From Agarophyton chilense (lineage: Eukaryota; Rhodophyta; Florideophyceae; Gracilariales; Gracilariaceae), in assembly GCA_030374765.1 (NCBI GenBank), contig JARGXX010000098.1, forward strand, positions 992,001 to 1,056,000: DNA of 64,000 nucleotides. The letters run 5' to 3'. The position numbers and the translations under genes were made by a program. Every line of letters starts with the position of its first letter. Within the stretch, counting starts at the first letter, position 1. The notes under the pieces are model-generated. The model worked only from the letters and a program-made list of their open reading frames with translations, was not told the DNA's origin and ran no database searches. Positions 1 through 55,100 of this stretch are shown one piece after another.

Positions 1-1461
1 ATGAAAAAGCAAGGTACCTTTTCATCGAGTACTTCTTGGGTTTCGCCAGATGTCTTGAGTCGCGATAGCACATTAGCTTCGACATTAGCCAATCCCTTCT
101 TGTAATTCACTTAAAAATGGAATTCAGAAAGGCGTAGGCGCCATCGTGTGAGACGAACTGATCGGTCAGTGATTGACGAAAACCATCACAGAAACGAATG
201 ATACGTATTGAAAGTAAAACCTTCTCCCTCTAGATACTATCTCAAAGTGGCTAGGGCCCAGACGACTACAAGGCAATAATTTCTTGAATCTGGAAATTTC
301 CTTTCATCTGTGTTCAGCGATCTTGACCGGTATTCATTGGGGTTGCATTCACAATCATAGCGTGTTTGCAAGAGGTAACACCCTACTTGGTAGTCGATAG
401 AGTCAATAGCCATTGAAAATGGTAGGTTAGAGATGGACAACGCCAAGACGGGAGCTGCAATAACCGTGGTTTTCGGTAAATCGAACGCTTCCCATTCAGG
501 CGGTCTAAACTGTTTCAGCAGTATCGGATGTCTCTTACGAAACTTTGCGTTGAGCTGTGTCCTTTATGCAAGTATCGCAGTAAGAATAGTCAGTAGACTT
601 TGAAAAAGCCTAGGAAAGGACCGAATCGTTTCTTTGTATACGGCGGCTGAACCTCGCGAAGAGACGCTGTTCGTACTTCCTGAATAGCGATTTTTTCCGG
701 CTTGATCAACTGTCCCAAGTACTTGACGGTGCTAGCGAACTATTCGAAGTTTTTGAAATTCAAGGTGATACCTACGGTCTGCAGTACTTTGAGAATATCT
801 TCGACATATCGTAAATGGCGTTCCACATCTTGGTAAAAGATGATCAAATATTTCAAATAGACTAAAAACGTCTTTTACTTACAACTTCAGAGCAATATGT
901 CCATGGTACGCTGGACAGTAGCTGTTGTGTTCGTTACGCCATAGGTTATTCTTTTGAAACGGTGGAGACCCGCGTGTCACACAGATGCGGTCCTATTCTA
1001 GTTTTACTTCGCAACAGCCACCGGCCGATAGCCAGGGCTGGCGTCCAACGTGGTTAAATCATTCTTTTCTCGTGATTTGTCAATATATTCGGCCATGCGA
1101 GGCAACATCAATGGGTATGTATCACGAACTGTAACTGCGTTCAGATTTCGATAGTAGATAGAGAATCGTAAAGAATCTTCCGGTTTTGGAACCAGAACTA
1201 CTTATGAGGCCTAAGCATATTGAGCTGCTTCTATAACCCCCTTTTTCAGAATTTTTTGACGCTTTCCCCCTGTATTTGACGACTATGCAACCACGCTATG
1301 TAGGGTGGTTGTACTATGGGGCGAGACCCTAGAACTGAGTCTATGTGATGTTTCGTAGCAGATATCTCGCCTAACTCTCCACTCAATGTAGAGGCGTCCT
1401 TCTTCAGCATTGATAAGATCTTTGTTCTGTAGTGTTCCGATAAATGTGCTAAATCTGGCAC
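1..1461 (-). pseudogene. Decayed Ty3/gypsy reverse transcriptase, cut by window edge
   Basis: Reading the minus strand from 1461 downward gives a recognisable gypsy reverse transcriptase across several frames. First comes the pre-RT segment with KHHID and an R-P-I-Q-PPY-like stretch (1461-1250). Then VVLVPKP, a LRFSIYYRNLNAVT stretch, TLDASPGY (the first catalytic Asp region, about 1050) and HAGLHRFKRITYG. Further down is a region matching the helical part before the connection domain, ending near KYLGQLIKP (about 700). Many stops and frame changes interrupt it, so it is inactive. RNase H and integrase, if present, lie beyond position 1. Order and polarity match the gag remnant upstream on the same strand. 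Confidence 0.8.
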
Positions 1462-14113: not shown

Positions 14114-16678
14114 TCAAGTGTTAACTCGACGATTCGCCTTGGGTTTCCACTGCGGACCCTTAACATGCTTCACCTCCGAGTACCCCGGAAACTGCGACAA
14201 ATCTTGCAGAAGCGGCGATTCCGCCAACTCTCTCCTGGAAAGTCCCACCGGCATCTGCGTCATATAGTAAAACTTCTTAGGAACCATAGGGGCAGGAAGT
14301 ACAGATTGTGCGTGAAGTTTGAGCCAGGGCTCGCTAACCCTCGCACCACGCTTCGGAACAATGGCACAAAACACTTCAGCTCCAAATCGCCTGTCCTTTC
14401 TGCCAAATGCCTTTGCAACATCTACGGCCGGATGATTTCTCATAGCAGCCTCTACATCATCAAGTGCTACACGCACAGTTTTCGTTAATGCACCTTGATC
14501 ACCAGTGCTTGCTTTGACTTCAACTGGTTGGCTGTGATTTGTTCCATATGTAGCATCCGCAACTTCTCGTGCAGCCTTGACAGCTTCTCTAGTATTGTTC
14601 GCCGACGACTCCGCACTAGCAGCAGCAGCCATGACAGCTGCTTCAAGTTCCTCCATACGCAAGTCGATCACCTTTCCGCCATCACTGTTCCCATTTGTAG
14701 CGGCACGTTCCGCTTCAGCTTCAGCATCGGCCACACGTCGTTTCATTTCCTCCAATTCTGCAGCATTTCTCATTTCAACATCCCTCTGTAGTCGGCGGTG
14801 ATTCTCTTCAATAGCTTCCAGCCGGGCCAGGATAGCATTGGCAGTTTCTTCATCTAGCTCATCGGGGTTCTCCACACCAGCGCGTACTAAAGCAGCCGAT
14901 CGTTCTGCTTGTTCCATCTTCTCTGCCGCCTTTTGAGCACGCGCAACCTCCTCCTCAGCGGCGCGCTGCATTGTGCGTTCCTCCTCCTCCTGGATGCGAC
15001 GCTCATCTTCGTGAAGTTGAAGTTCCTCCTTCTCAATTTTCTCTTTCTCTACATTAACAGCCACCAACACTCTCTGGCGTTCCGCCTCCTCCTTCTCTTC
15101 CTCTATTTTCTTTCTCTCCTCATTTGCTATTCTTTCCTCTTCCGAGCGGCGTTCTTCTTCAAGTTTTCGTTCGTCCTCTATACGCTTTTCCTCCGCAATT
15201 TGCTTCTCTTCTTCTTCTTTCCTCGAGGCTTCCTCAGCAGCAACCCTTTCAGCCTCTGCTTTGGCAAGCGCAGCAGCCTCGAATTCTCTGGCCTTCTTCT
15301 CCTCCTGCAATGCAATCTCTTCCTTTCTCAATGTACGGGAATCTCCGAATACTGTAAGCACTCCATCATCCTTAAGCGAACCATAATCCCCCGTGGAAAA
15401 CCACACAACGGGCGGGTCATCTGGGTTGGGTGCGGGCGTCTCGAAGATGGCGCTCTCCGTGGCAATATCGGAATCGTAGTACGAAGAACATACATGAGAT
15501 CCGGTTACGGCAATCTCACCGTTAACACCTGGCGGACACATTTCACGAGTGTCGTTGTTGAATACGGCAACTTCGACGCCATCAACAGCCTTTCCAACTG
15601 TACCGGCGTATACGGCATCATGTCGATTGGTGGTAGCAAAACCGCAAACCTCAGCAGTTCCGTATGACTCATACACCTTTGTTTTGAGACTCTTCTCCAC
15701 CTTCTCCAATAGTTCGGCCGCAATGCAAGATGTGCCGCTTGAACGAACAAAGGTGAGTAACTGCTTGCCCGATGAGGGTGAGGACTTTTCGTTCTCTTCG
15801 TAGAGGTCAAGAATCTGATCGGCCGACGCAGAAACCCATGTTATGTTATGCTTTTTGGCGAAATCCCAGAATTTGTCGGCCTCAAAGCCGCCGAAGCCGG
15901 GAAGCACTATATGGCCACCGGAATAAAAGGTAGCAATGAGAATGAGAATACCATGAATGTCGTGCAAGGGCGGTGCTAGCATAGTGGACATATTGACAGC
16001 GAGATTGTAGGTGGTGACGAAGGACTTGGCAGCTTCACACAATGCATAGTGAGAGAGAGGGACAACGGCAACGTCGGACTGTACATGAACGGCAATTTCG
16101 TCCGGATCAAGCGTAAAGTCTCCGGCACCTCCCGCCCAAGCTGCGCCAGTTCCCATGAATCTACCGTGCGTCTCCAAAACAACTCCCTCATTTATTGTGC
16201 GATGGATATGCCACTCCTTGACGTCGAGTTTATCACACGCAGCGGTACACTTGACAAAAAGGGGGTCATCATCATCTGCAAGCGGACTGACAAGCACTTT
16301 GGCTCCCGATCGTCGGACAGCGGCTTCGAATTGGTCGGAGTCCAACGAAGGGTCGATGGGGGCGGCGACGGCCGCGATCCACCATAAGGCGAAGAAGTAT
16401 ATGATGGATTCACACGACGTGGGTAGGGCAAACGCGCAGATAGTTCCGGGGCGAACGCCGGCCTCCCTCATTCTACCGGCGACGTTCTCAACCATCTTGT
16501 AGACCTCGATGTGCGAGAAGACGGCCTTGCGACCGCGGCGCGCATTGGGATAAGCAGTGACGGCGAGCTTGGTGGCATATCTGGATTTGGGAAGCTCCGT
16601 GAGGGTGGTAAGCTTGAGGAGTTCCTCCTTCTCCGAGCTGGGCAACGCGCGCAGAAAAGAAGCCGACGCCGGCTGCAT
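14114..16678 (-). CDS. ANL adenylation-like protein with coiled coil inserted at the hinge; probable pseudoenzyme
   Basis: An 854-residue protein from ATG at 16678. Residues about 1-445 follow the N-domain of acyl/oxalyl-CoA synthetases: the G-VRPGTICAFALP segment, HDIHGILILIATFYSGG, YESYGTAEVCG (A5-like, about 336-346) and FSTGDYGSLKDDG (A7-like, about 427-439). Residues about 735-818 match the mobile C-domain (ALDDVEAAMRNHPAV, GAEVFCAIVPK, LPAPMVPKKF). Between them, about 449-710 is almost entirely E/K/R/A-rich heptad-like sequence, a long coiled coil. Two catalytic features are absent: the Ser/Thr/Gly-rich ATP loop expected near residue 199 (IAVHVQSD runs straight into VAVVPLSH), and the terminal catalytic lysine (VGLSRREL replaces a TGK-I-R-type end). 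Adenylation activity is therefore doubtful and a scaffold role is inferred. It is divergently transcribed from the aminotransferase gene. Confidence 0.8.
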   Translation of the reverse strand: MQPASASFLRALPSSEKEELLKLTTLTELPKSRYATKLAVTAYPNARRGRKAVFSHIEVYKMVENVAGRMREAGVRPGTICAFALPTSCESIIYFFALWWIAAVAAPIDPSLDSDQFEAAVRRSGAKVLVSPLADDDDPLFVKCTAACDKLDVKEWHIHRTINEGVVLETHGRFMGTGAAWAGGAGDFTLDPDEIAVHVQSDVAVVPLSHYALCEAAKSFVTTYNLAVNMSTMLAPPLHDIHGILILIATFYSGGHIVLPGFGGFEADKFWDFAKKHNITWVSASADQILDLYEENEKSSPSSGKQLLTFVRSSGTSCIAAELLEKVEKSLKTKVYESYGTAEVCGFATTNRHDAVYAGTVGKAVDGVEVAVFNNDTREMCPPGVNGEIAVTGSHVCSSYYDSDIATESAIFETPAPNPDDPPVVWFSTGDYGSLKDDGVLTVFGDSRTLRKEEIALQEEKKAREFEAAALAKAEAERVAAEEASRKEEEEKQIAEEKRIEDERKLEEERRSEEERIANEERKKIEEEKEEAERQRVLVAVNVEKEKIEKEELQLHEDERRIQEEEERTMQRAAEEEVARAQKAAEKMEQAERSAALVRAGVENPDELDEETANAILARLEAIEENHRRLQRDVEMRNAAELEEMKRRVADAEAEAERAATNGNSDGGKVIDLRMEELEAAVMAAAASAESSANNTREAVKAAREVADATYGTNHSQPVEVKASTGDQGALTKTVRVALDDVEAAMRNHPAVDVAKAFGRKDRRFGAEVFCAIVPKRGARVSEPWLKLHAQSVLPAPMVPKKFYYMTQMPVGLSRRELAESPLLQDLSQFPGYSEVKHVKGPQWKPKANRRVNT

Positions 16679-17213
16679 GTCGGAGCGAAGCGGGCGGCGA
16701 GGAAGCGGGCGGCGGGGAAGCGAGTGGCGGGGCGAAGGCGCAAGAAGGGGCGCGATGATGGCCTGCGAGCGGCTAGTAGAGGACGGCGGGCGTAGCTGGC
16801 GACGACGTAGCTGGCGACGACGTAGCTGGCGACGACGTAGCTGGCGACAGCGGCAGCTAGCTGGTAGATAGCGGCGGTAGCTGGCGCGTAACGTTCAGCG
16901 TGATACCGAATGGCGCCTTAGCGCGCCACTAAAGCGGCAGCGTCGCCACGTCGCCCACGTACGACGCGCTGTCACTCGCAGACTCGCAATGCGGAAACGC
17001 CAGCAATGTGCCACGTGTGCGCGTGGCGCATTCAGCATTGCTCTTCCACTCGTGGCGCAACGCCTTTCTGTACAGCTGTGTGTGTGTGTGTGTGTATGAT
17101 GCCTGCCAGATTCACGCTCGAAGAAGATCGGTGTCTTACCCTAGCTAGGCGGTGAGAACGGCGGCGTCAGCATCAGCGCCGTCGCTTCGCGCAAAAGGCT
17201 CGCTGGCACAGCT
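16679..17213. promoter_or_regulatory. Divergent intergenic region (ANL-like / aspartate aminotransferase)
   Basis: 535 bp between two divergent start codons, so it should hold both promoters. It is GC-rich and contains a 15-bp tandem array (16792-16850) and a TG run (about 17077-17097). There is also a CCACGTG E-box-like site near 17010. No TATA box is obvious. Promoter function follows from position only. Confidence 0.5.
16792..16850. repeat. 15-bp tandem array, about 4 copies
   Basis: The unit gtagctggcgacgac is repeated nearly perfectly, followed by degenerate copies (ggcagctagctggtag). It lies about 115-170 bp upstream of the ANL-like start codon, within the shared promoter region. Confidence 0.9.
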
Positions 17214-18503
17214 ATGGCGCGTCTTGCTTGCCTCCGCCGTCTCTCCACGCTCGCTTCGCACGCCGTCAAGCCGGCCCCGCCCTCGCGCTTCGCCGCCACT
17301 CCCCGCGGCCCCGAGGATGCCATCCTGGGCGTCACGCTCGCCTACAACGCCGACCCCAACCCCAACAAGATCAACCTCGGCGTGGGTGCCTACCGAGATG
17401 ACGCCGGCCTTCCCGTCGTGTTGGACGCCGTTCGACAAGCCGAGTCTCGTATTTTAGACCGCTCGCTCGACATGGAGTATTTGCCCGTGGCTGGCAGTCA
17501 CACTTTCTTGCAACGCGCCATCTGGCTCGCCTATGGGGACGACCTTGTTCGCAGAATGAGCGGAAGGTTTGCTGGCCTGCAGACGCTTTCTGGAACTGGT
17601 GCTTGTCGCATGGCTGGCGAGTTGATTTCCAGATTTTTGGACTTTGCTCACCGCTCCGACAAGCCTTTGGTGTTGCTTCCGGATCCGTCCTGGGCCAATC
17701 ACCGTCCCATCTTCACCGATGCCGGATGTCACGTTGCGTCGTATTCCTACTATGATCCGCGCACAAACACTCTTGACATCGATGCCTGTCTGAATAGTTT
17801 GGCAAACGCCCCCAATGCAAGTGTCGTCTTGCTCCATGCTTGTGCGCACAACCCCACGGGAGTCGATCCCACTATGGAACAGTGGGCTGCTATAAGTAAC
17901 GTCGTCTTGGAAAAGTCACACTTGCCTTTGTTTGATATGGCTTACCAAGGCTTCACAAGTGGTGATATGGATGTTGACGCCGCTAGTGTCAGGCTCTTTG
18001 CCGAAGAGGGCCATAAAATTGTTCTTGCGCAGTCCTTCTCAAAAAACTTTGGCCTGTACGGACAGAGGGTTGGCTGCTTGTCCGTTATGACCGACAGTGA
18101 ACAAGAAACGCAAGCCATCAACTCGCAGCTCAAGATTATCGCCAGACCCATGTATTCCAACCCTCCAATAGCCGGCGTGAGACTGGTTGAGGAAATTCTC
18201 AATTGCGAAGACTTGCAGCACCTGTGGAGGAGCGAAATGAAGTCTATGGCCGAGAGGATTATGTCCATGAGACGTAGATTGAGAGAGCATCTGATTGAAC
18301 TCGGCAGTGAACAAAACTGGGATCATATTGTCAATCAACATGGCATGTTTTGTTTTTCGGGCCTTTCGAAAGAGCAGGTAGACAAATTGAGGCACAATTT
18401 CTCAGTGTATCTCACCTCTAACGGACGCATTTCCATGGCGGGTGTTACGTCGGACAATGTTGACTACTTGGCTGAAGCCATCCATCACGTCACCACTTCA
18501 TAG
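17214..18503 (+). CDS. Aspartate aminotransferase, mitochondrial type
   Basis: A 429-residue class I PLP aminotransferase that interconverts aspartate and 2-oxoglutarate with oxaloacetate and glutamate. Visible landmarks are LGVGAYRDD near the N-terminus, SGTGACRM (cofactor phosphate region), HNPTGVDPT, FDMAYQGF, the Schiff-base lysine in SFSKNFGLYGQR (K277) and the C-terminal GRISMAGV with its substrate-carboxylate arginine. The arginine- and serine-rich, acid-free start (MARLACLRRLSTLASH) resembles a mitochondrial presequence. Length matches the eukaryotic family. It is convergent with the EB1 gene, with 323 bp between the two stop codons. Whether it serves mitochondria or plastids cannot be settled from sequence. 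Confidence 0.95.
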   Translation: MARLACLRRLSTLASHAVKPAPPSRFAATPRGPEDAILGVTLAYNADPNPNKINLGVGAYRDDAGLPVVLDAVRQAESRILDRSLDMEYLPVAGSHTFLQRAIWLAYGDDLVRRMSGRFAGLQTLSGTGACRMAGELISRFLDFAHRSDKPLVLLPDPSWANHRPIFTDAGCHVASYSYYDPRTNTLDIDACLNSLANAPNASVVLLHACAHNPTGVDPTMEQWAAISNVVLEKSHLPLFDMAYQGFTSGDMDVDAASVRLFAEEGHKIVLAQSFSKNFGLYGQRVGCLSVMTDSEQETQAINSQLKIIARPMYSNPPIAGVRLVEEILNCEDLQHLWRSEMKSMAERIMSMRRRLREHLIELGSEQNWDHIVNQHGMFCFSGLSKEQVDKLRHNFSVYLTSNGRISMAGVTSDNVDYLAEAIHHVTTS

Positions 18504-18826: not shown

Positions 18827-19723
18827 TCAATGACGGCCATCCTCGATAGTGTCATCAAAATGGTCATCAAAACGGTCATCCAACGAGAGTTGTTCAGCTG
18901 CATCAATAATTGCATCTTGCTCTTGCTCGTCCTCCCGCAACTCATCATCGGCCACAGCATTTGCTTCTTCTTCATCAGCGTACAACACTGCCCTTATTTC
19001 ATCAAACACGGATAGGAAGTCGATTTTTTCGTGTTCATCTTCCTTAATCTTGCCAATAACACTCTGAATTATGATTTCAACATCTCTCAGTTTGTTGAAG
19101 TAAAACTCTCGATCGGTCTCGCAGTTGTCCATTTCGGTCTTGAGCTTTTCATTCTCTTCCTTGACGGCGTCAAACTCGGTACGCTTGACCATAGAAGACG
19201 CCGTACTGCGGGCACCATTGAGGCGTTTTGACGCCATTTCATGTGTGCGCGGGCGATTGGCAGCCAAAGCAGGTCGTGCGGCTGGACGGCTTATAGAGCC
19301 ATCCTTGGTCATTAGCTCCTCGCGACGGAGACGACCGTCATAGTTTAAGGCTTCCTCCGAGGCGTGCGCGTCGTAAAAGGCCTTGATCCATTGCATAAAC
19401 TCGAGATTGTCTTGATACTTTGCCTTGACCAACTTTTCCACATCGATACGTTTGCGAAGTTTTGCACGGTTAAAGGCAGCTTGTAGGATCTTGTAATTGT
19501 GCACGAATTCATGCGAGTGTTTTGCATTGAACTTGACCTTTTCAAATCGAATAAGCCCTGGATACAGGGCATCAAACACATGACAGGCAAACACACCAGA
19601 GGCGGTCTGTTCAATCTTGCTATAGTTGAGACCAGTAAGTTCGTTAATCCAACGCAGTAGCTGGTGTCGGCCGACAAAATAGGCACCGGCCATCATACCG
19701 ATAGAATCTCCCGTGACTTCCAT
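18827..19723 (-). CDS. EB1: EB1-family microtubule plus-end protein
   Basis: A 298-residue protein starting at 19723. Residues about 15-125 are the EB1 calponin-homology domain that binds growing microtubule ends (GRHQLLRWIN, LNYSKIEQTASG, HEFVHNYKILQAAF, KLVKAKYQDNLEFMQWIKAFYD). A basic, Ala/Ser/Pro linker follows (about 140-185). The EB homology dimerisation domain is at about 186-250, with the FYFNKLRDVEIIIQ signature that lines the SxIP-partner pocket. The acidic tail (about 250-298, D/E-rich) ends in EDGRH and lacks the EEY/F terminus that recruits CAP-Gly proteins in animals and fungi. Single exon. The family call is very secure. Confidence 0.95.
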   Translation of the reverse strand: MEVTGDSIGMMAGAYFVGRHQLLRWINELTGLNYSKIEQTASGVFACHVFDALYPGLIRFEKVKFNAKHSHEFVHNYKILQAAFNRAKLRKRIDVEKLVKAKYQDNLEFMQWIKAFYDAHASEEALNYDGRLRREELMTKDGSISRPAARPALAANRPRTHEMASKRLNGARSTASSMVKRTEFDAVKEENEKLKTEMDNCETDREFYFNKLRDVEIIIQSVIGKIKEDEHEKIDFLSVFDEIRAVLYADEEEANAVADDELREDEQEQDAIIDAAEQLSLDDRFDDHFDDTIEDGRH

Positions 19724-20067: not shown

Positions 20068-20411
20068 CTACAGATCCCCCGGCACGACGAAGGCAGCGCC
20101 ACTACTGCAATACGCGTAGCCGACGATGAGGCGTTCATCGTCGACGATTTTCCGCCGCGCCTTGGACACGGGCCACAGCGCGTGGTCGCCGTAGTTCACG
20201 TCATCGTAGTCCTGATCGACGCTTATCTTTCCCCATTCGCTCATGTCGAAGTTGCGCAAGTCGTCTTGCTCAGCCGACGCCGCCTTCATGCGTTCCCTCA
20301 GGCTGCCGTGCTTGGCGCCACTCTTCCCACTGGGCGCGCGCCGCGCCGCATTGCCACCGTTCCCTCCGCCGTCGCCGCCTCCATCGCCACCCTCATCACC
20401 ACCATCGTCGC

Positions 20412-20442
<31 letters not shown>

Positions 20443-22041
20443 TCCGGCCAGTGCAATCGGCTCTGCGTTGATGACGGCTGCCGTGGTCTGCCCTTCGTCC
20501 AGCGCGTCCATGTGCGCGTACTCGTCCGTCACAACGAGCGTACCCGGCGTGTCCCCAGCCTCGTTTGCGGCGTGTGCCGCCGCGCACGACCCCAAGCCGG
20601 GGGGCGGCGCGGATGTGGCCGCGTCAGACGCAACGCGCGACGCGGCGTCAGTAGTAGCAGCGCGCGGTAGATTGTTCACGTCCGAGTCATTGCGCGCAAG
20701 GCGCCGACGTTCAACCAGGACAGGCTCGGAGGTGTGTGTCATGTACACTTTTCGCCAGTCGGTGCCGTGGAAGAAGGGATGTTCCCTGACCTCGGCGCAC
20801 CCAGTGGGTCCACAGCCCAGCCGCGTGTCCGGGTTCCAGTCCAGCAGGCGCTTGACCATGTTGACGAGTTCGCCCGACGTGCTAGACGAAAAGCGGATGC
20901 GACGGTTGTTCATGTTTGCAATGACCTGATCCAGCTCTCGCGCTTCATACGGTGTGCGGCCTCTCAACATGTGGTACACAAACACACCAAAGGCCCACAG
21001 ATCGACCGACTTGCCGTAGTTTCGCACGGAGAGCATCTCCGGGGCGGCGTAGGTGTGCGTGCCACAAATAGAGTTTGTGAGGGTTCGATCCGGCAGAAAC
21101 TTGCACAAGCCGAAATCGGCGAGACGCACATGGCCGTCCGAATCCAGCAGCACGTTCTCCGGCTTGAGGTCGCGATACACAAAGCCCAGGGCGTGCAGAT
21201 GCTCAAGCGCCAGCAGCACCTGGGCGGAGACGGTCCTGACCTGCGGCTCCTTCAAGCGGCCGGAGTGGGTCTTGAGGTACTGATAGAGATCGCCGCCGTC
21301 GTAAAAGTCGATGGCGAGGTACAAGTAGGAGCGGGTCTGAAAGGCGTAGCGCAGACGGGAGAAGAAAGGGTGACCGTCGACCATCTGCAGGGCGAGACGC
21401 TCATCCAGGGCGTGTCGCAAGGTGGTGTTGGACTCGAAGACCTTGTTCTTGTCCAGCACCTTGAGGGCGAGCTTGCGACGGGTCTTGCGGTCTGCGACAA
21501 GGAAGACCTTTCCACTGGCGCCCTTGCCAATGGGGCTGATGAACTCAAAGTCGGAGATGGCGACGACGCGCTGTTGAGCGGCATTGACAAGGGCCTTTTC
21601 CCACATATCGGTGGCGCGTTCATCGTCAAAGCGAATCCACACGGCATGGGCGCTGGACGGACGCGAAATCTTCAAGAGCGGAGCGGAAAGCTTCCTACTG
21701 ATGGTACAAGCGTGAACAGAAAACAAGGAAACAAACTGGCCATTGTCGGCGGTGGCCAGCACGACTCTGGCACGCAACTCAATCCACAAGCGCTGATACT
21801 TTGCCATGAAGGGATATCGCGCGCACTTGATCAACGCAGAGGCATTGGCAGTAGGCGGAATTCTCTCGAGCAAAGCCAAAGACTCATTACGCACGACACC
21901 GACTGACGGGGCATTATACACGCGCGTGCGCAAGGTAAGCGAACGTCGGGCATGACGGGCGGGGCCAGAAGGCGGCAAGGACGAAGCGACGGGCGGCGCA
22001 GGGCGCTCTCTCACGACGGAGCGCGGTAGCGACGACGCCAT
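20068..22041 (-). CDS. AGC-family Ser/Thr kinase with N-terminal PH-like domain
   Basis: A 657-residue protein. Residues about 70-155 look like a PH domain ending in a WEKAL helix, suggesting phosphoinositide-dependent membrane recruitment as in PKB/Akt-type kinases. The kinase domain spans about 164-425: GKGASGKV glycine loop (172-179), LALKVLDK lysine (K194), FVYRDLKPEN catalytic loop, ADFGLCKF magnesium loop, and activation segment TNSICGTHTYAAPE with the AGC-type T-x2-C-G-T pattern. The C-terminal tail is long. It has a low-complexity Ala/Thr region, an uninterrupted Gly run (about 533-544) followed by GGD repeats, then an acidic end. I see no clear FxxF-S/T hydrophobic motif. The HRD His is replaced by Tyr (YRD), as is common in AGC kinases. 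Confidence 0.9.
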
Positions 22042-35646: not shown

Positions 35647-38600
35647 GTTCTAGTCAAACCTGCCGTCACGGCCTAAATTCTCTTGGGTTGCAATATCACC
35701 TCCTTGGACCGACGGCAAAGGTGACCAAGAAGAATTTCGCGATGCTGTTCGTTTATGGAAAATGTTCTACAATGCACTACCCGACTCTAACAGCAATAAA
35801 ATTCCTACTACTCTTCAAGCTATTTGTCTAAAGTCTCAACAGTTCGGACGTGCCGAAGACCTTTGTTCTGGAATTACGAACCAGCAGTTGACTGCCGATG
35901 GAGCTGTACAACTGTTAGTTGGAAAAGTCTATCAAAGAGATTCCTTGACTGTTGTTAGTGAATCATATCGTGCTTTCAACGCTCTCTGGAATACTCGTCG
36001 TGGAAACACTGAAAGTATGAAGAACTTTGAGTCTAGGTTCTCTGCACAGGTTGCAAAATTCAACTCCATTTCCACAACAACGAAGCTTCCGGAATGTATC
36101 ACAGCTCTCATGCTGCTATCTAATTATTCGATTGATGACTCACCGCGAGTATCAGTACTAGCATCAGCTGCACCAGCTGCTGAGAACTTAAATGCACAGT
36201 CATCCAATGATGAATTTCTGAGTGCAATAACATACCAGTCTGTATCCTCTGTCATCAAGCAGTGTGACAAGTCTGCACCTGCAATAGGTTCTATGGATGC
36301 CCTTACTGCTAGTTCTGCTGGAACTACGATTCATGGGAAAGGGCACTACAATGGAAACAATATTACAATGAAGTTTCCTTGTGAAAAGTGTGGAAAGTAT
36401 GGTCATTGGAAAAGAAACCATAAACCTGATGGATCCTTACCATCACACGTGAAGTCGTTTGACGCACCTCAGAACGGAAACTCACGAAATGCTCGTGACG
36501 GATCTTCATCTACCTCGGCCTATGCATCTACCGGTTTCGATAAGGGTAAGAAGAAAAGTGTTTCTTTTAATATGGCTACAGTTTCCGGATCTTCAGCATC
36601 ATTGCCTGCATTAGCTCAACCTGGACCGTTAGTTGATGACGGAGCACCTTACTCGGCAATTGGACAGGTCGAAATGAACCTTCTCATCGGAAATGCTGGA
36701 CTTCAGACCAATAGGAAGCTGGATAAAATACCTAAAGCCCTCAATGGTCACACACACTGGCAGTATGGTACAGGAAAACATGCCAGTCCAGCTCGTCGCA
36801 TTTTAGGATCCACTGTGCTCACAACAAATTCTGACAGTGGAAGTTCTGTCAACATAACACATCTAGTCCTTGAAGGCTTATCGCAGTGGGTAATTGGCAG
36901 AAATGTTACAAGGAAGGCCAACATAGAACACCTTGAAAGAAATGCTCTAGCATTTGTCATAGATGCAAGTGTCGACCATATCTCCATGGTTGACCATGAG
37001 TTCTTAAGCTATGTACCACTGGATAGTTTCATCGAAAAGGAAAAGGGTACATCAACTTTGTCATGTCTAAGTGCTGTAACTTTAGACAAGATGCGATGGA
37101 AGGAACTCAAGAAGATAATCGATAAAGTTCACAAGCATGTATGTGGACAGGCAAGTTTTACGGATTATAAGCTTCTTTTGGAAAGGAACAACCTCTGGAA
37201 TGAAACAATAGCCTTCTATGTTACAAGAACCATGGAAGAGTGCACAGCTTGTCGTTGCACTGCTGTACCGCAACCTAATAGGAAGGTCTCGATCAGCTCT
37301 TTATCAAAGAGTTTCAACGAAGTCTTGTGCGTGGATCACTTCAATCTGGATGAAATTCTCCTCATGCACTGCATGGATCTCATTTCGAGATGTTCAACGG
37401 CATACATTGTTTCTTCTACCAAGCTTTATGATGCAGTACTTGGATTTGAGGCCAGTTGGGTCAGTCAGTTCTGGTATCCTGATTCAATTCAAGCGGAGAA
37501 GGCTTTCCAAATGGGCGAGTTCAAAGCTTACGCTGACAAGATGGGTATTCAGATTCGTTCAGTTCCCCCTGGACGACACTCAAAGAACCCGATCGAGTCC
37601 AGACACAACATAATTCGCAGTATATATCTGCGACTGAAGGAAGCTGCTGGCTCAGAATTTGACTCTAAGCTTGCTGCACACAAGGCGGTTTCTATATCAA
37701 ATGATTTGTATGGTAATGACACTATGTCTGCTTTCGAATTAGCAAAAGGTTTCACCAACCCCGTTGCTTCTAGACCCCAGGATTGTACTGTACCTGATGA
37801 TGTTCTAGAAGCCCGTGAAAGGATGCAAGCTCGCCGTAAGTTAGCTCTTATTCTGCGATCAAAAGCAGTTCAAGAGTTACCTATTTCTGTTGGTGACCTT
37901 GTTGAGGTCTTCCAGAAGAAAGAGCACGAAAAGAGGGGCAAATGGTCAGTTGCTAAACCAATCCTATCTATCAATTACGATGCCCGCTCTGGCACTGTTC
38001 CTGGAAAGGCAGGACGCCAATTGTCTGTCGCTGTCGAAGACATTCGCCCTGCCATACCAAATAAGAGCCTTGCGCAATATTTGCAAGATGGTATTGACGT
38101 ATTAGATGAGCTCCTTCACGAAAAATATTATGGTGTCACGGATCATGATGTAAATGGCGCTGTAGAATCCTCTTATGAGGTTGAAGAACCTGTTGACGAT
38201 GATTTTTCAACCGAGACCTCGAAGCCAGAACCTGCACTTGGTGACAGAATCTCTGTTTTTTGGCCACTGGAAGGTCAGTTCTACGATGGTATCGTGCACT
38301 CTACAGCAGACGACGGACACCGAGAGATCCACTATGATGATGGTGACACAGAATATCTAGATATGACAAAGGAACATTGGAAATTTGCAAGTGCACTTCC
38401 TGCAAATGCTGGTAAAGTTTCAAGTGGTTTGGAGGTTACTAGTATTGAAAGCTCTGTGCTATCATCGATGCTAGACCACTTTGGTAACAAACCATTTCTC
38501 ATTCACCAGGCACAAGGATTTGATCAGTTTCCTCTTGTCAATGCTTACAGAACGGAGGAGGATACATTCCTGAAGACTGTGCGACCTCTGCCTAAGAGTA

Positions 38601-40065
38601 AGGTTCCATCTGCGTCTAATATTATAAACAGTCATACACTGTACAAGTTGAAAAAGAATGATGATGGTTCATTGAAGCTTAAAGCTCGCATAGCACCTCA
38701 CGGTAATGAAGACGATTTAAAGGACTCTCTAAGCAAAGACTGCAGCACATGCCCTCCTACAGGACTACGGATCCTCGAGTCCATATCTTCTCTCTTTGGG
38801 TGGACCCTGTACAAGGCTGACGTCAAGGCAGCATTTCTACAGACTGGAACAGCTCAGCGTGACGTGTACGTCAGACCACCGAGAGAGAGTGAGATGAAGG
38901 CGCCTCACCTTTGGCTTCTCTTAACTGCGGCGTATGGCTTGGTTCATGCTAACGCCAAGTGGCAAAATCAGTCTGACCAAGTAATGTGTGATATTGGACT
39001 CATGCAATCCACGCATGTTCCCCAGCTATTTTTCCAAAAGGAGAATGGAAAGCTTGTGCTAATCGTCGCGAAGATTGTCGACGACTTGAAGGCAGCAGGT
39101 GTAGGTGACCGGGCTATGGTTTTTCTAGACAAATTCAACAAAAAGTTTAAGTTTGGTGATGTTAACCTGGAAAACTTCGCTTCTTTGGTATTAATACAAC
39201 CCAGAACAGTGACTTTACCATAGAAACTGATGCAAATGATAAGCTTGATGGTGTTAGCGAATATCCACTCTCTACACACCGCCGAAAGGAGTATGAAGAG
39301 CCGGTGAAAAAGATAGAGAAGTCAGCATTTTCGTCTATCAACAGCTCGCTTGGATGGATAGGAACAGCTGCCTCTCCGTTTTGTTCAATCTACTCTAGCT
39401 ATCTCCAGCAAAAGGCACCGGAAACTAAAGTGTGTCATTTGGTTGAGCAGGTTAACATCCTCAGAAAGCTCAAGAAGCTTGGCACCACAATTTCATATCC
39501 AAGACCAACGGACAAATTGGAGCGAGAACTTTCTGTTCTTGTATTTTCTGATGCGTCAAGGATAGATGATAATGGTCAGTTAGGAGTGCTTACTGGCCTT
39601 TTGGTAGGAGAGATGAAGAGTAACGCAATTTATCATCCTATTTCTTGGATTTCTCACAAGTCTAAGAGGCCAGTGAAGAGTGTGCCTGCGGCAGAGATAT
39701 TGGCTGCTGGTGAGGGAATTGACGAAGGAAAGTTAATTGCCAGTGCTTACTCCCAGTTGTTGGACATGGATATCCGTATGAGACTCTGCGTAGATTCAAA
39801 GGATTTATTGACTTCGCTGTCAACTCAGAAAAACTCTATCGATAAGTCTATCAGGGGTGACGTTGGATGTATCAGGTATGAGTTTCAGACTGGTGCTGTA
39901 GAGAAGATATCCTGGATACCTGGAAGCACTAATCTGTCCGACCCTCTGACAAAGAAAGACAGTAGTCTTCCGGACGCCCTGCAACCGACACTTTTCACAG
40001 GTCAACTATCCATCGACCTAGACAGTGTCTCGGAAACAAAAAGTTCAGAGAAGAACTTCGGCTGA
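35636..40065 (+). pseudogene. Gag-Pol polyprotein of copia 1, two lesions
   Basis: The frame starts at ATG 35636, meets TAG at codon 6 (35651-35653), then is open from there to 39223. A small deletion near 39164 shifts the frame, which resumes to the stop at 40065. Domains in order: Gag with a zinc knuckle of C-x2-C-x4-H-x4-H form (36380-36421); protease with DDGAPYS (about 36635); integrase with HKHVC...CTAC zinc site (about 37130-37255) and core MDLISR...QAEKAF...NPIESRH; Tudor-like module (38235-38390); RT with KADVKAAFLQTG and IVDDLKAAG; RNase H with VFSDASR, AAEILAA and VDSKDLL, then a copia-type DPLTKKDSS end. The second core Asp appears as Glu (QAEKAF against RADKAF in copia 2), so integrase may be impaired too. 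Confidence 0.9.
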
Positions 40066-44126: not shown

Positions 44127-44140
44127 GTTATGGGCCCAGC
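44127..44140 (+). other. Primer binding site of copia 2 (anticodon-arm, initiator tRNA-Met)
   Basis: GTTATGGGCCCAGC, identical to the copia 1 site although the surrounding sequences differ. The gag ATG (44130) lies inside it, so the start codon is the copy of the tRNA CAU anticodon. Confidence 0.85.
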
Positions 44141-47100
44141 GCCCCAATCCAATCTGCCGTCCCGGCCCAAGTTCTCCTGGGATGCCAAGTCTCCTCCATG
44201 GACTGATGGCAAAGGTGACCAGGAAGAATACCGTGATGCTGTGAAGCTCTGGCAAACGTTTCATAACGCACTACGAGGTTCGAACAGCAACAAGATTCCA
44301 ATTGCACTTCAGGCTATATGTCTTAAGTCGCAACCGTATGGCCGTGCAAAGGACCTTTGCCCCGGAATTGCTGATGGCCAGTTGACGGAAGATGGCGCTG
44401 TGGATCATCTGGTAGGAAAACTTTACCGGAAGGACGCTCTCTCTGTAGTCAATGAGGCTTATCGCGATTTCAACCAACTCTGGAATACTCGTAGAGGCAA
44501 CACAGAGACTATGAAGAACTTCCAATCCCGTTTCTCCGCGCAAGTTGCAAAGTTCAACTCCATCTCTGCAACGACTAAGCTTCCAGAGTGTATTACGGCG
44601 CTAATGCTGCTATCCAACTCTGCAATTGACGACTCTAAGCGAGTCTCTGTCATGGCAGCAGCTGCACCTTCCGATGAGAACCTGAATTCTCAATCGTCGA
44701 ATGATGAGTTTCTGAGCTCTATCACGTATCAGTCAGTGGCCTCGGTAATAAAGCAGTGCAACAAGACTTCTCATGCCCTGAGTGGTACTGTACCGCTTAC
44801 TGCTAGTTCGGCTGGCACCATGCAACACCGCGAACAACATCGCTATAGCAAGAACAGTTCTGATTACCGTTACAAAGGACAGTCTCCTTCAATGAAATAT
44901 TCTTGTGACATATGCGGCAAATACGGTCATTGGAAACGTAACCATAACCCTGACGGCTCACTACCTCATCATGTCAAGTCGTTCGATGCACCAGCTACAT
45001 CATCTGCTTCGCGAGCTCCTGGATCGCGCCCTGAACATGATCAAGAAAGGAGATACAAGTCGCAAAGGAAGACAGTGTCGATTAATATGGCAACTCTGAC
45101 TAGTTTATCAGCTAGTACCGGCAAGTCACCTGTCGAAGTTGGACCTCTACTTGACGACGGAGCACCGTACTCATCAATTGGCTTTATCGAACTGAATCTA
45201 CTTGCTGACCATATAGGGATATCGCTCAATCCCAAGCTCGATGCCATTCCCAAAGCACTCGATGGACATACACATTGGCAGTATGGAGTCGGTGAACACT
45301 CCAGTCCGGCACGCTGCATCATAGGATCTATTGTCATCACTGCGACATCTGACCAAGGTAGACCAGTCCGTATCACCCAACTTGTCCTGGATGGATCCTC
45401 TCAGTGGGTCATAGGAAGAAATGTAACTCGCAAGGCCAAAATCGAGCATATTGGAAGAAATGCATTGGTCTTCCTGGCTGACGGTCATAGAGACCATATA
45501 TCTATAATCAATGAAAGTTTCTTAAGCTACATAGCTCTAGATCGGTTTACCTCTCATTGTAACAATGGTTCTACACTGTCATGCCTCTCAGCAGTCACTC
45601 TCGATAATGCACCATGGCTTGAGGTCAAGAAGATTATAGACAAAGTCCACAAGCACGTTTGTGGTCATGTAAGCTATACAGACTACAAGCTCCTCCTCGA
45701 GAGAAACGGATTTTGGAATGAAACCATAGCTCATACCTCACGGACATGGTCAATCACTGCACGGCTTGTCGGAGCACATCGGTCCCGCAGCCCAGTCGTA
45801 TGGTTTCAATCAGTTCTCTGTCAAAGAAATTCAACGAGGTTCTCTGTGTCGATCATCTCTATCTGGATGAAATACTACTAATGCATCTGATGGATCTCAT
45901 CACACGATATTCGAGCGTCTATGAAGTTACCTCGACAAATCTCTCAGAAGCTGTTGTTGGCTTTGAAGTTTCATGGGTATCACAATTCTGGTACCCTGAC
46001 TCTATTCGTGCAGACAAGGCATTCCAAATAGGTGCATTCAAGAACTACACCAAGAAGCTTGGAATCCCAATTCACCCAGTGCCTCCTGGTAGGCACTCCA
46101 AGAATGCAATAGAGTCTAAACACAGCATCATCCGTAGCGTCTTTATTCGTCTAAAAGAAGCTGCTGGCGCGGACTTCGATCCAAAGCTCGCAGCATACAA
46201 GGCTGTGTCAATCTCAAATGACCTCTATGGCAACGACACTATGTATGCATTCGAACTAGCCAAAGGCTTTTCTAGCCCTATCGTGGCAAAGCCTATCGAA
46301 ACTGTAATCCCGGTTGATGTGGTCAATGCTCGTGACCAGCTTAAAGCTCGTCGCAAACTGGTGCTTATTTTGCGCTCGAAGGCAGTGACCGAAGTGCCAA
46401 TTGCAGCTGGTGATCTTATAGAAGTATACCAAAAGAAAGAATTTGAGAAGAGAGGAGAATGGTCCGATCCCAAACCGGTCCTCTGTATCAACCAGCATGC
46501 ACGTTCAGTGACTGTACCAGGACGCAAAAATCGAGAAATCACTGTTGCATTTGAAGATACTCGCCCAGCGCTGCCTCAAGAAAGCTTCGCCCAACTAGTA
46601 CAAGATGGTATTGACTCGATATCGGAGATTTCAAGTGACCACTGTACTGCTTTAAAGGCACAGGCTGAAATGAACACAGATGTCAACTTTGAATGCTCTG
46701 TACCAAGTGACACTGCTGTTGACTTATCTCAAGGTTTGTATGATATCAACAAACCTGTTGATGCACCTGTTGATGATGACTTTTCTACTGAATCCTCAAA
46801 CGTTGAACCCTGTGTAGGAGACAATATCTCTGTTCTCTGGCCCCTTGAAGAACAATGCTTCCCTGGCACTGTCCACTCGGCAACAGAAGATGGTCGTCTA
46901 AACATACACTATGATGATGGGGATGTAGAACAACTTTAAATGGAGAAGGAGGTATGGAATTTTACTGAAACACTCCCAGCCAGTTCTGGTACAGTGGCAC
47001 AACTGGAAGTCACAAGCACTGAGAACTCAGTCCTAGAATCGATTCTTGACCATTTTGAGAACAAACAATTTCTAAGACACCACGCACAAAGGTTTGACCA

Positions 47101-48646
47101 ATATCATTTAGTCAACGCCTAAAATGCAGAGAAAGATACATTTATCAAGACTGTTCGCCCGGTCACACACGAAGAAGTTCCTCCGAACTCCAGTATTATC
47201 AGCAGTCACACCTTATACAAAGTGAAGACAAATGATGACGGGTCTCTCAAGCTGAAAGCACGTATTGCACCACATGGGAACGAGGACGATTTGAAGAACG
47301 TCTTGAGCAAAGACTGTACCACATGCCCACCCACAGGACTTCGGATCCTCGAATCAATTGCATCTCTATTCGGCTGGATAATCCACAGGGCTGATGTGAA
47401 GGCTGCGTTTCTGCAGACAAGGGAGGCTCAAAGAAACGTCTATGTTCGCCCACCCAAAGAAAGCCAAATGAAATCGACTCATCTTTGGCTACTTCTGACA
47501 GCTGCCTATGGCCTTGTCAATGCAAATGCCAAGTGGCAGAACCAGTCCGATAATGTTATGTTTGATATTGGACTCAAGCAATCGACCCATGTTCCTCAGC
47601 TTTTCTTCCAGAAAGAAAACGGAAGGCTGGTATTAATTGTTGCTAAAATAGTTGACGACCTGAAAGCTGCAGGCGATGGCGACCGTGTGAAACGCATTAT
47701 GGAGGAGTTTGACAGACGATTCAAGTTTGGTGATGTGATGCAAGGACCAGGCAAACTCCGATTCTTTGGCATCAACACTGTTCAAAATGGCGACTTTACC
47801 ATTGAGACATATGCGGACGATAAGATGAACTCTGTATCTGAGTATCCGTTTTCTAGGCAACGCCGCAAGCATTTTGATGAGCAACTCAATCAGATTGAGA
47901 AGTCTGTGTTTGCCTCCACAAATAGTTCACTTGGATGGATCGGAACTGCGGCTTCACCATTTTGCTCATTCTATGCCAGCTACCTGCAGCAAATAGCCCC
48001 TGATCTAAAAGTATGTCACCTTGTTGAACAAGTGAATATAGTTCGCAAGCTGAAGAAGCTCGGAACAGCTATTGCTTACCCTAGACCAACAGACAAAAAT
48101 CAGTTTGAACTCAGCGTTCTAGTGTTTTCAGATGCGTCACGGACAGATGAATGTGGCCAACTTGGAGTTCTAACTGGTTTGCTTATCGGTGAGATGAAGA
48201 ACAACTCGATTTATCATGCCATATCGTGGTTGTCTCACAAGTCAAAGCGCCCGGTCAAAAGCATACCTGCTGCAGAGATTCTTGCTGCCTTGGAAGGGAT
48301 TGACGAAGGAAAGACAATCTCTAAGGCATACTCGGAGCTTCTTGGCATGGAAATCAAGTTGAGACTTGCTGTGGACTCTAAAGACTTGTTTACTTCACTA
48401 TCGACACAGAAGAATTCTATCGACAAATCGATTCGTGGTGATGTTAGCTGCATCCGTTTTGAATTTCAGACTGGTGCTGTTGATAAGATATCGTGGGTTC
48501 CCGGTCATTCCAACCTGGCAGATCCGCTTACCAAGAAAGACAGCTCTCTGACAGATGCTCTTCAACTGATTCTGTTCACTGGCAGACTTTGCTTCGATTT
48601 CCAGGACATTGCTGAGAAGAATCATTCGAAGAAAAACTTTGGCTGA
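44130..48646 (+). pseudogene. Gag-Pol polyprotein of copia 2, three lesions
   Basis: Frame one (44130-45881) holds Gag, the CCHH zinc knuckle (44904-44945), the DDGAPYS protease (about 45155) and the integrase zinc site. A one-base loss near 45748 shifts to the frame 45746-46939, which has the integrase core (LMDLITR, RADKAF, NAIESKH). A TAA at 46937-46939 cuts the Tudor-like module (46814-46970), and a TAA at 47120-47122 precedes RT. The final frame (to 48646) has RT (RADVKAAFLQTR, IVDDLKAAG) and RNase H (VFSDASR, AAEILAA, VDSKDLF). The lesions differ from those in copia 1. Confidence 0.9.
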
Positions 48647-52120: not shown

Positions 52121-55100
52121 ATGACATCTTCCAACTATGGTGTTGTGTCCGTTACTCAGCCGCCGACGTTACGATCTGTGGATCAACATTCGCTCATCAA
52201 ATTAGAGACGGGCTACACGGCGTACCGTGCCAAAATCGAGGACGTCAATAAGGACAGGGATGCAGACTCCAAGCTCACACCAGCTTCTGTGAAAGACTGT
52301 GTGGATGCCGCCACTCTGCATGCCTTGTGTATGATTGGCGAAATCCAAGATTCGACGACGGTTGAAGAAGCTACGGCGAGTATGGTTCAATCGTGGTTCG
52401 ACGCAGCCTCTAGTTCTGCCCTGAAGGGTCTTTTTGAACGTATCGACGCCTCTATGGATCCGTAACGTTCACTTCAAACAAGGAAGATCCTGCTGGTGGC
52501 GGAGCCAACTTTATTATCGAAGTAATTACAGCTTTAGACCAGAACAACACATCAGAGTTTCTGCAGGATAAGGATATGGCGAAATATTTCATCAATAGAC
52601 TTGTAGGCAAGTTCCAACCAGACGTTCTGCAGGAGTGTATCAAGATGCTACGCCGAGGATGGAAAAAGGAGCAACCTGCAAGTATCAATCTTTTAAAGGA
52701 CGAAGAGTCTAACACAGGCTTGGAAATTTCTCTAACCGAAACCACTCGTGCTTGAGTCAATCTTCGTAAATCTAGTCAGTGCCGAGATCGAAGTGCCAAG
52801 AGCCAGGATCGCTCCAAGTCTGGAACGTCGGGAAACAGGGCTACATCGGACAAGAAGAACAACAACCGCGTTGGAGGCAAGCGCAAGGAGGCCGAGTGGA
52901 CCGAACCTTGCCTCAACGAAGAATGCGGTGGCATCCATCGCCTCGAGGGCTGTAGGAACACATCAAATGAACGCAAACAAGAACTTTTCGAAAAGTTTTA
53001 CAAGAAAAAGGGTGCAAAGAACGTCAAGACCGTGAGATCAAAACTGTTCATGGAGAGCCAGATGTCTGACGCTGAAGAGGGGCGTTTCCGCATTGCTCTT
53101 GATGATGCGATTTTGAAGTCATGCTAGGAGACTCTGGTTCTGATTTCAGCGCGATTGACACCTCGACTTTCGATAAGGTCATGAATTTTGTCCCGGATTT
53201 GGATGTGAAGTACTTTGATTCCCCCATACCACTTTTCGGTGCTTTCAAGACTGACGAAGAAACGAAGTTCTCGGCTTCTCGTTCAGTCGTGCTCACAGTC
53301 ACAATCAATCTACCTGGTTCGAACCTTTCTGTTCGTGTCCGTGGCATCCAATTCTACATCGTCGACCAAGGCATGGATGAAATACTTCTCGGTCGACCAT
53401 TCCTCAATGCTATCGGTTTCAACCTTAAGAGCCTCCTCATGCGTGTACATGATACTCTACACAACAAGCATCTTGACGAACTTGATCCCCAGGAAAGGAA
53501 GTACGCCGTAGTCAAATATCACGGCCTCTCGTACACATCTGCTGAAGACGACCAGGTTCAACTTCCCGAGTGTCTTGCCGCAGGCATCGGTAAGGACAGT
53601 AAGGAATCGATGAAGGATGCGTTCTCCGACATGGCCGACGAGGCCAAACACAATGGAATATCAGACAAGGGCTGTGCGCAAATCACCAACATGCTTGAGC
53701 AGTACAGTGAGATGTTCCGCATCAAGCTCGGCGCTGATCCACCCGTTGACGTTCCAACACCAACCGTCTCGCCTGTTGAAAATGGCAAGCCTTACCGATC
53801 GCCTCAACGTCGGTATGCGCCACAGCAGAGGGATTTTATCGCGCAAACCATTCGGAAACTAGAAGCCGTAGGCGCCATCTACAAGAATCCGTCCGCACGC
53901 TGGGCTTCACCCGCTCTCGCCGTTCCGAAGCCTGGATCGAGTAAACTGCGATTCACGGTGGATCTACGTGGCTCCAACGCGCGGACTGTACCGATCCAAT
54001 CTGCGACGCCTTACTTGCACTGCAAGGTTTAGTTCGTCGCAGGTAGCACTTGTTTTGCGAACATAGATCTGGCCCACGGCTATTGGCTAGTCCCGCTCTC
54101 ACCCGAATCGCAGGAGATGATGTTTATTCAAACTCCCCTTGGAGTATACTCCTCAAAGAGTTTACTGCAAGGCGGCAGGGGTTCCGGCAACCACTTCCAA
54201 GCAGTACTGTCTCATCAATTCGACGGATGTGTCGCAAAGATGCTGTAGTGGATAGACGAGATTTTCTTTTCTACGCGAAGAACGAAGGAGAGCTGTTGGC
54301 AAACATCGAATCTTTCCTTCGCGTCTGCAGCGAAATAGTATTGAAGGTCCACGCAGAGAAGTCGACTTTATTCGCACGTCAAGCCCAGTTCTGCGGCTAA
54401 ATCATCTCCGCTCATGGCATAAAGTACCATCCGCCACACTTCGAATCATCGGTTACAATGAAGAAACCCACCCTGGCAAGCGAGCATCAACAGTTCGTGT
54501 GCGCAACAAACTGGATGAGGAACTCCATCCCTTCCTACGCTGAGCGCATCGCCCCCCTTCACCAACTGCTGGAGAAATTCTACACGATGTCCGGAAAGCG
54601 CAAAAAGCACGCACTGCGATATCTCTCTTTCGCCAACTCTTGGAGCCTTCAACATGATGCCGCTTTCGCCGACATCAAGGATCAATTAGCCGCCTCGGTC
54701 AAGCTCGCACATACGAAGTCCGATCAACACATGTGTCTTTTCACCGACGCATCGGAGACTCATTGGGCAGCGATTCTCACCCAAGTACCTCCAGAAGACC
54801 GACGCAAGGTCATAGAGGAGCAACGTCACGAACAGCTCTGTTTCTTATCTGGCACCTTCTCAGGATCAGCTGCGAACTGGTCTGTACCCGAGAAAGAAGG
54901 ATACGCTATCGTGGAGGCTATGTGCAGACTAGACTACCTCGTCATAAGGCATGAGGTATTTATGTTATCCGATCATGCGAATCTTGTCTATCTCAACGAC
55001 CCTTACGACAAGAATCCCGGGATGTCGCGGCACATGGCCAGCAAGCTCATTCTCTGGGCCATTAAGTTTAGTGCATTCCTCAACGTTATCTAACACCTAC

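Follow-up and report, generated by a model that had tools for sequence, protein, structure and literature searches.

Gene and domain layout

The reverse strand of Agarophyton chilense contig JARGXX010000098.1 carries, at 14114..16678 of the window (the whole stretch of 64,000 nucleotides that was analysed), a gene whose product resembles an ANL adenylating enzyme split at its hinge by a long helical segment. The questions raised by this locus are whether such a protein is genuine and, if so, what an enzyme interrupted at this point could still do. The gene consists of a single ORF (-) encoding 854 aa, with an ATG start and an uninterrupted frame. Its start methionine is common to the window protein and the transcript-derived homologue P0002, and the two are colinear from there. 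Pfam and the homologues identify it as an ANL pseudoenzyme.

Pfam analysis showed an AMP-binding domain (PF00501, 132 bits) followed by an AMP-binding_C domain (PF13193) at residues 742-810 (29.6 bits against a cut-off of 24.5). The best match among solved structures is an oxalyl-CoA synthetase, which aligns in two blocks (residues 51-448 and 740-811). With both Pfam domains over their cut-offs and this two-block match, the landmarks of the N- and C-domains occur in order, as the initial annotation had described, and the protein is a member of the ANL structural superfamily. The N-terminal adenylation domain fold occupies residues 1-446 (15341..16678 (-); PF00501, AlphaFold2 model and Foldseek). 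The ANL C-terminal domain, which is without the A8 hinge and the A10 glycine-lysine, occupies residues 733-812 (14243..14482 (-); PF13193, pLDDT and identity) and is followed by a family-specific tail at residues 813-854 (14117..14242 (-); alignments). About 285 residues separate the two domains at the hinge. An alignment with the genome's own intact oxalyl-CoA synthetase shows these extra residues beginning immediately behind the hinge segment, where GDSRTLR pairs with GRIKELV; the C-domain is picked up again where KTVRVALDDVE faces GEKISPIEVD.

The surroundings of the gene were inspected by eye. An aspartate-aminotransferase-like ORF (17214-18503 (+)) is divergent to the pseudoenzyme gene, and further along lie an ORF whose translation resembles the microtubule end-binding protein EB1 (18827-19723 (-)) and a protein-kinase-like ORF, seemingly of AGC type, with a long poly-glycine stretch (20068-22041 (-)). 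Upstream of the start codon, at about 16792-16849, there is a tandem repeat of a 15-base unit (gtagctggcgacgac) in three copies and a partial one. Two similar retrotransposon-like sets in the same orientation (35762-40065 and 44130-48646 (+)) comprise gag-, integrase- and reverse-transcriptase-like ORFs, in an order which we take to be of the copia type. Further protease/reverse-transcriptase-like ORFs were recognised from their translations at 53121-55093.

Homologues of the long protein

The long family has at least 61 members including the window protein, 54 from a first protein search and seven from a second (best 8000 and best 7994 candidates scored). Homologues with the same insertion position, which the initial annotation had proposed to look for, are represented by the 58 of these 61 that were aligned over the full layout; P0040, P0054 and P0079 were left out as truncated. 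P0003 of Gracilariopsis chorda is 81% identical to the window protein over 100% of its length, and other named long members are P0048 of A. chilense and P0054 of Gracilaria domingensis. A tree of the N-domain, built by a quick method, contains a clade A of 34 rows including the window protein and a clade B of 24 rows, and does not place P0052 in either. The family rows that carry a species name are all from red algae (Gracilariopsis chorda, Agarophyton chilense, Gracilaria domingensis and Hildenbrandia rubra; 7 rows). Most family rows carry no such name, and the family may be restricted to red algae.

A segment of this kind could be the product of a sequencing error, of two fused genes or of a retained intron. 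It is kept in frame in P0003 and in three relatives from transcript assemblies, namely P0002 and P0051 (Trinity names) and P0052 (MMETSP name). Transcripts that splice out the segment, which had been named as a finding that would overturn the reading of this locus, were thus not what the relatives' transcripts showed. The three transcript-assembly homologues make an artefact very unlikely, and the probability left for a retained intron, fusion or sequencing error is negligible, so that these were rejected.

Loss of catalytic motifs

In the available portion of a published account of the ANL cycle, the phosphates of ATP are coordinated by the P-loop, and a conserved lysine and rotation about the linker belong to the same cycle (PMC6122825). 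In the window protein, the place of the A3 P-loop corresponds to residues 193-212 (16043..16102 (-)), where the canonical motif is absent. Neither a strict nor a loose P-loop pattern was matched by any of the 61 long members, and homologues with an intact P-loop, which would have suggested sequence error, were therefore not encountered among them. The strict and loose patterns catch 22 and 48, respectively, of 66 other ANL matches. Because they miss some of these matches, the aligned residues weigh more, and these agree with the absence of the P-loop (alignment blocks of 53 sequences; residue counts over 57). The P-loop reads TSGTTSRPKG in the genome's intact oxalyl-CoA synthetase, and some clade B members of the long family keep a Gly/Ser/Pro-rich loop at the former P-loop place. 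The earlier claim that the P-loop had disappeared without loss of its flanks was borne out for the P-loop itself; its flank, however, is altered, since some 19 conserved residues have been inserted immediately upstream of it.

The remaining motifs were counted in 57 aligned long members (34 of clade A and 23 of clade B). The A5 remnant YGTAE (residues 339-343, 15650..15664 (-); alignments) retains the glutamate, which is present in 57/57 and also in P0052, and has lost the threonine (0/57). The A7 aspartate is kept in 47/57 and is replaced in 8 of the 23 clade B members, and the A4 histidine is found in 27 of the 34 members of clade A. The A8 arginine is changed to N, D or S throughout clade A (34/34) and the long insertion then follows, where a short GR.KE hinge would otherwise be looked for. 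The A10 glycine has become arginine in 56 of the 57. In the A10 lysine column, which is ambiguous because of a three-residue deletion there, the window protein has arginine, while 7/34 (clade A) and 4/23 (clade B) have lysine in a context lacking the glycine. The replacement of the terminal catalytic lysine thus stands for the window protein, and is qualified by this ambiguity and by the lysine of 11 out of 57 relatives. Eight AMP-binding_C loci were identified in the genome, three of which are the pseudoenzyme family. The other five all keep the A10 glycine-lysine (two judged by eye), and a P-loop is visible in four of them within the stretch examined.

From these sequence comparisons we infer that adenylation has been lost in the long family, with residual ligand binding being possible. 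Oxalate-dependent CoA ligation by the window protein is unlikely given the missing motifs. The proposal of a pseudoenzyme built on an ANL fold interrupted at the hinge has held up, this state being conserved over many homologues. The public names of P0003, P0054 and P0130 are peroxisomal-coenzyme A synthetase, acid-thiol ligase and oxalate-CoA ligase; as these proteins lack the catalytic motifs, metabolic reconstructions in which they are counted as enzymes could be in error.

The reading preferred here, which we regard as having about an even chance of being correct, is that of a catalytically dead scaffold derived from an oxalyl-CoA-synthetase-like ANL enzyme, in which a helix pair and the C-domain assemble and the N-domains are carried on variable tethers. 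Its main rival, possible and rather unlikely, is a metabolite sensor: the N-domain would still bind a ligand (acyl, CoA, AMP or oxalate-like) but not turn it over, and its bound state would be passed on by the helices to the C-domain or to a partner. The retained A5 glutamate, A7 aspartate and clade A A4 histidine favour such a sensor, and the invariance of the first together with the frequency of the second would fit residual binding of a nucleotide or acyl-adenylate, which counts against the scaffold. Against the sensor are the loss of the P-loop and of the A5 threonine throughout, the loss of the A8 arginine in clade A, and the replacement of the A7 aspartate in part of clade B.

Conservation of the N-domain and family signature

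A family signature region (GAAWxGGxGDF; residues 151-192, 16103..16228 (-)) was recognised from motif counts and alignment. The pattern W.GG[ASG].D[FY] is present in 61/61 long members and in 0/66 other ANL matches, and in the alignment the stretch is in part an insertion immediately ahead of the missing P-loop. Within clade A, mean identity is 71% in the signature stretch, 50-55% in other N-domain stretches and 40% in the first 50 residues. At 50-71% identity, these N-domain segments are not those of a decaying domain. This conservation, along with the confident prediction of the N-domain fold, is a further point in favour of a metabolite sensor. As far as the alignments can suggest, any new function of the N-domain would most plausibly reside in its signature region. 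Towards the other end of the protein, mean identity within clade A is 82% for the helix H2, 81% for the C-domain (residues 731-812; 62% between clades A and B) and 69% for the tail (813-845).

Predicted structure and the nature of the inserted helices

An AlphaFold2 model of the window protein, built on a 53-sequence alignment, has a mean pLDDT of 79.3 and a pTM of 0.58. Beyond residue 50 the N-domain mostly scores 88-96, falling lower at 171-190 and 301-310; the C-domain mostly scores 90-95, against 46-82 in the rod between them. Helices are modelled at residues 447-502, 517-599, 610-661 and 675-710, the first starting right behind the last strand of the N-domain, and linkers with pLDDT below 50 include 662-675 and 711-732. 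By block, H1 has mostly 73-86 and H2 is of low confidence (48-69). In a Foldseek search against the PDB, oxalyl-CoA synthetases ranked first (6qjz, E 5e-39; also 5ie2). The alignment to 6qjz extends over 812 columns with an rmsd of 27, which is expected if both folds are kept and the domains are displaced.

The initial annotation had placed a coiled coil of about 260 residues exactly at the hinge and A8 motif. The position of the insert is confirmed by the alignment and by the helix starting at residue 447; its description as a coiled coil was not upheld. Residues 447-600 (14879..15340 (-)) form a tether of variable length, rich in E, K and R, which resembles a single alpha-helix in its charge-pair and heptad scores. 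The excess of attractive over repulsive i/i+3 and i/i+4 charge pairs has a z of 5.6 in the window protein (median 3.8, range -0.6 to 6.8, over 53 sequences), and heptad periodicity in the same 53 sequences is at chance (median z -0.2). A custom periodicity test was used; as control served 15 segments of 100 residues, chosen for their low Gly/Pro content from four of the genome's SMC-type genes. These gave heptad z values of 0.2-5.7 (median 3.9, one being only 0.2) and charge-pair z values of -2.4 to 3.1. Two 100-residue segments of the tether gave heptad z values of -0.2 and 0.9 and charge-pair z values of 5.2 and 4.2. On account of the missing heptad periodicity and the excess of ion pairs, the tether looks like a charged single alpha-helix and not like a coiled coil. 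Taking the helix rise of 0.15 nm per residue, the tether of the window protein, at 154 residues, would span about 23 nm if fully helical.

The length of the tether is labile, at 49-421 residues (for 447-606) over the 58 aligned members, a value that depends on the alignment (40-294 for 450-600 over 53 rows). In P0053 its place is taken by a Ser/Gly-rich linker. Such many-fold variation and such a linker would make a poor relay, which speaks against the sensor. The two helices that follow differ from the tether in this respect. H1 (residues 610-661, 14696..14851 (-)) is defined by its length, by the model and by its occurrence in the small paralogue described below, and the Ala-rich H2 (residues 675-710, 14549..14656 (-)) by its length, hydrophobic periodicity, identity and the model. 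H1 (610-655) is 46 residues long in 58/58 members, H2 (672-712) is 41 residues long in 56/58, and the C-domain (733-812) has 75-80 residues over the same 58. Amphipathic periodicity in the two helices is moderate, with a best z for H1 and H2 of 1.8 and 2.8 in the long family and 2.8 and 2.3 in the small family. The H2 value of 2.8 is reached at 3.5 residues, whereas H1 peaks at 3.6 and not at 3.5. This moderate amphipathicity and the position of the H1 peak weigh against the scaffold reading, and any coiled-coil core would be putative.

A rod of some 260 residues, built as a coiled coil and separating the ANL domains, would agree with the run of modelled helices and with the amphipathic periodicity of H1 and H2. 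The contrast between the tether and the SMC-type control in heptad periodicity and the labile tether length both oppose it; it was disfavoured in the periodicity test and is now considered improbable. The fixed rod of the initial annotation is not supported, in view of the chance-level heptad score, the range of tether lengths and the linker of P0053. The constant lengths of H1 and H2 and the existence of a separate small protein fit a tethered assembly module better than a rod of set length with a domain at either end.

The small paralogue

The same genome (79.8 Mb searched) also encodes a second long paralogue, a small paralogue (L003) and an intact oxalyl-CoA synthetase (L004). The product of L002 is identical to A. 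chilense P0048, and the L003 ORF ends in a stretch identical to P0128, a protein likewise named as A. chilense. The product of L003 consists solely of the helix pair plus the C-domain, with no N-domain. A MenB-like ORF (naphthoate synthase/enoyl-CoA hydratase family, by eye) lies near the small paralogue, at 83-838 (+) of the L003 locus. A search with L003 returned a small family of 63 proteins including itself, which includes Hildenbrandia rubra, Gracilaria domingensis and Gracilariopsis chorda. P0163 (a fragment) and P0190 (weak and partly different) were left out of the alignment, and the 61 aligned proteins have 212-312 aa (median 248). The second half of the small-family profile matches ANL C-domains, and the helices weakly match 9bk7 (SHRT_binder). 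A search of a prokaryote collection with two peptide patterns gave 59 matching stretches, none of which could be confirmed as related to the small protein. The small and long families separate on one branch with a support of 69 and a very long outgroup branch, in a tree made without 9 rows lacking a pattern-detected module start; given this support and the long outgroup branch, no claim is made as to which of the two came first.

A free-standing C-domain raises the possibility of a split, trans-acting enzyme, in which the C-domain of the small paralogue would act as a lid on the N-domain of a long paralogue and chemistry would be kept. Most small proteins read TRKAL near the A10 site, offering a lysine, and the low-confidence linkers of the long model (662-675 and 711-732) would let a foreign C-domain dock. 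The small paralogue itself reads SGITRKALAE, without a glycine-lysine context, and the P-loop is missing in all 61 long members. On this evidence a split enzyme is improbable.

A proposed scaffold

We infer the assembly, partners, location and function of the family along the following lines. An oxalyl-CoA-synthetase-like ANL enzyme would have lost its adenylation chemistry and been retained as a scaffold. H1, H2 and the C-domain would form the assembly core, in which long proteins of clades A and B and the small paralogue might mix; being fixed in length, conserved and also encoded on their own, these three parts are the most plausible assembly module. The charged helix would serve as a length-tolerant tether presenting the N-domain, and, since it tolerates large changes in length, it would more probably extend the reach of that domain than fix a spacing. 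The signature region of the N-domain may dock a partner or hold a ligand in place of substrate turnover. In favour of the scaffold reading are the layout and motif losses shared across the long family, the conserved N-domain, the charge-pair-rich tether beside helices of fixed length, the stand-alone small paralogue, and the presence in the genome of an intact oxalyl-CoA synthetase and of five further AMP-binding_C genes with their glycine-lysine. The low confidence of H2 in the model, the Gly/Ser/Pro-rich loop of some clade B members and the lysine found at the A10 column in some long relatives and in most small paralogues count against it.

A more specific version of the scaffold would be a lineage-specific structural complex of red algae with three subunits (long A, long B and small), joined through the helix pair and the C-domain, with the N-domains as heads at the ends of charged tethers. 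Such a complex might belong to a cell structure specific to red algae, such as the plugs between cells; we consider this conceivable and rather unlikely. To our knowledge, the MMETSP red algae were not florideophytes, in which case P0052 would argue against a function limited to the plugs of florideophytes. The pit plug is described as mainly glycoproteinaceous in the portion available of one account (PMC10536634), and the parts consulted of the literature on pit-plug proteins gave no link to the pseudoenzyme family. If its subunits do assemble, the family would provide a scaffold open to experiment, in a lineage on whose structural proteins the literature searched offered little.

Comparison with known systems

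Oxalyl-CoA synthetase, or oxalate-CoA ligase, is the best match in sequence and fold over both domains (6qjz, 5ie0-5ie3 and 8aff, which we take to carry the name AAE3 and, for plants, to have that identity) and is the likely parent. The window family differs from it in having no P-loop, A8 hinge or A10 glycine-lysine, and in having a new signature and the long stretch between the domains. In the literature searched, which excluded most subscription papers, neither an ANL pseudoenzyme of such a layout nor such a red-algal protein was found. On sequence grounds, the window protein would thus be an ANL-fold pseudoenzyme with a layout matching no named family found, the nearest published idea found being DIP2. 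Like the window family, the FAAL-like domain 2 of DIP2 is an ANL-like domain with degenerate motifs that is kept in a conserved eukaryotic protein, according to the available part of its description (PMC9342972). The same text presents DIP2 as a tandem didomain in which FLD1 depends on its adenylation motifs, unlike the window family, and that part makes no mention of a helical tether in the hinge or of a paralogue consisting of the C-domain only (PMC9342972).

Single-alpha-helix regions such as those of Drebrin and myosin VI are described, in the portion available of a recent source, as charged helices with i/i+3 and i/i+4 ion pairs, and the Drebrin helix, once predicted to be a coiled coil, is monomeric (PMC12203971). 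Unlike these, the single alpha-helix predicted here sits in the hinge of a former enzyme. The hinge is a moving part of ANL enzymes; this family has filled it with a length-tolerant helix and also possesses a separate gene for the C-domain, so that the two domains appear to lead separate lives.
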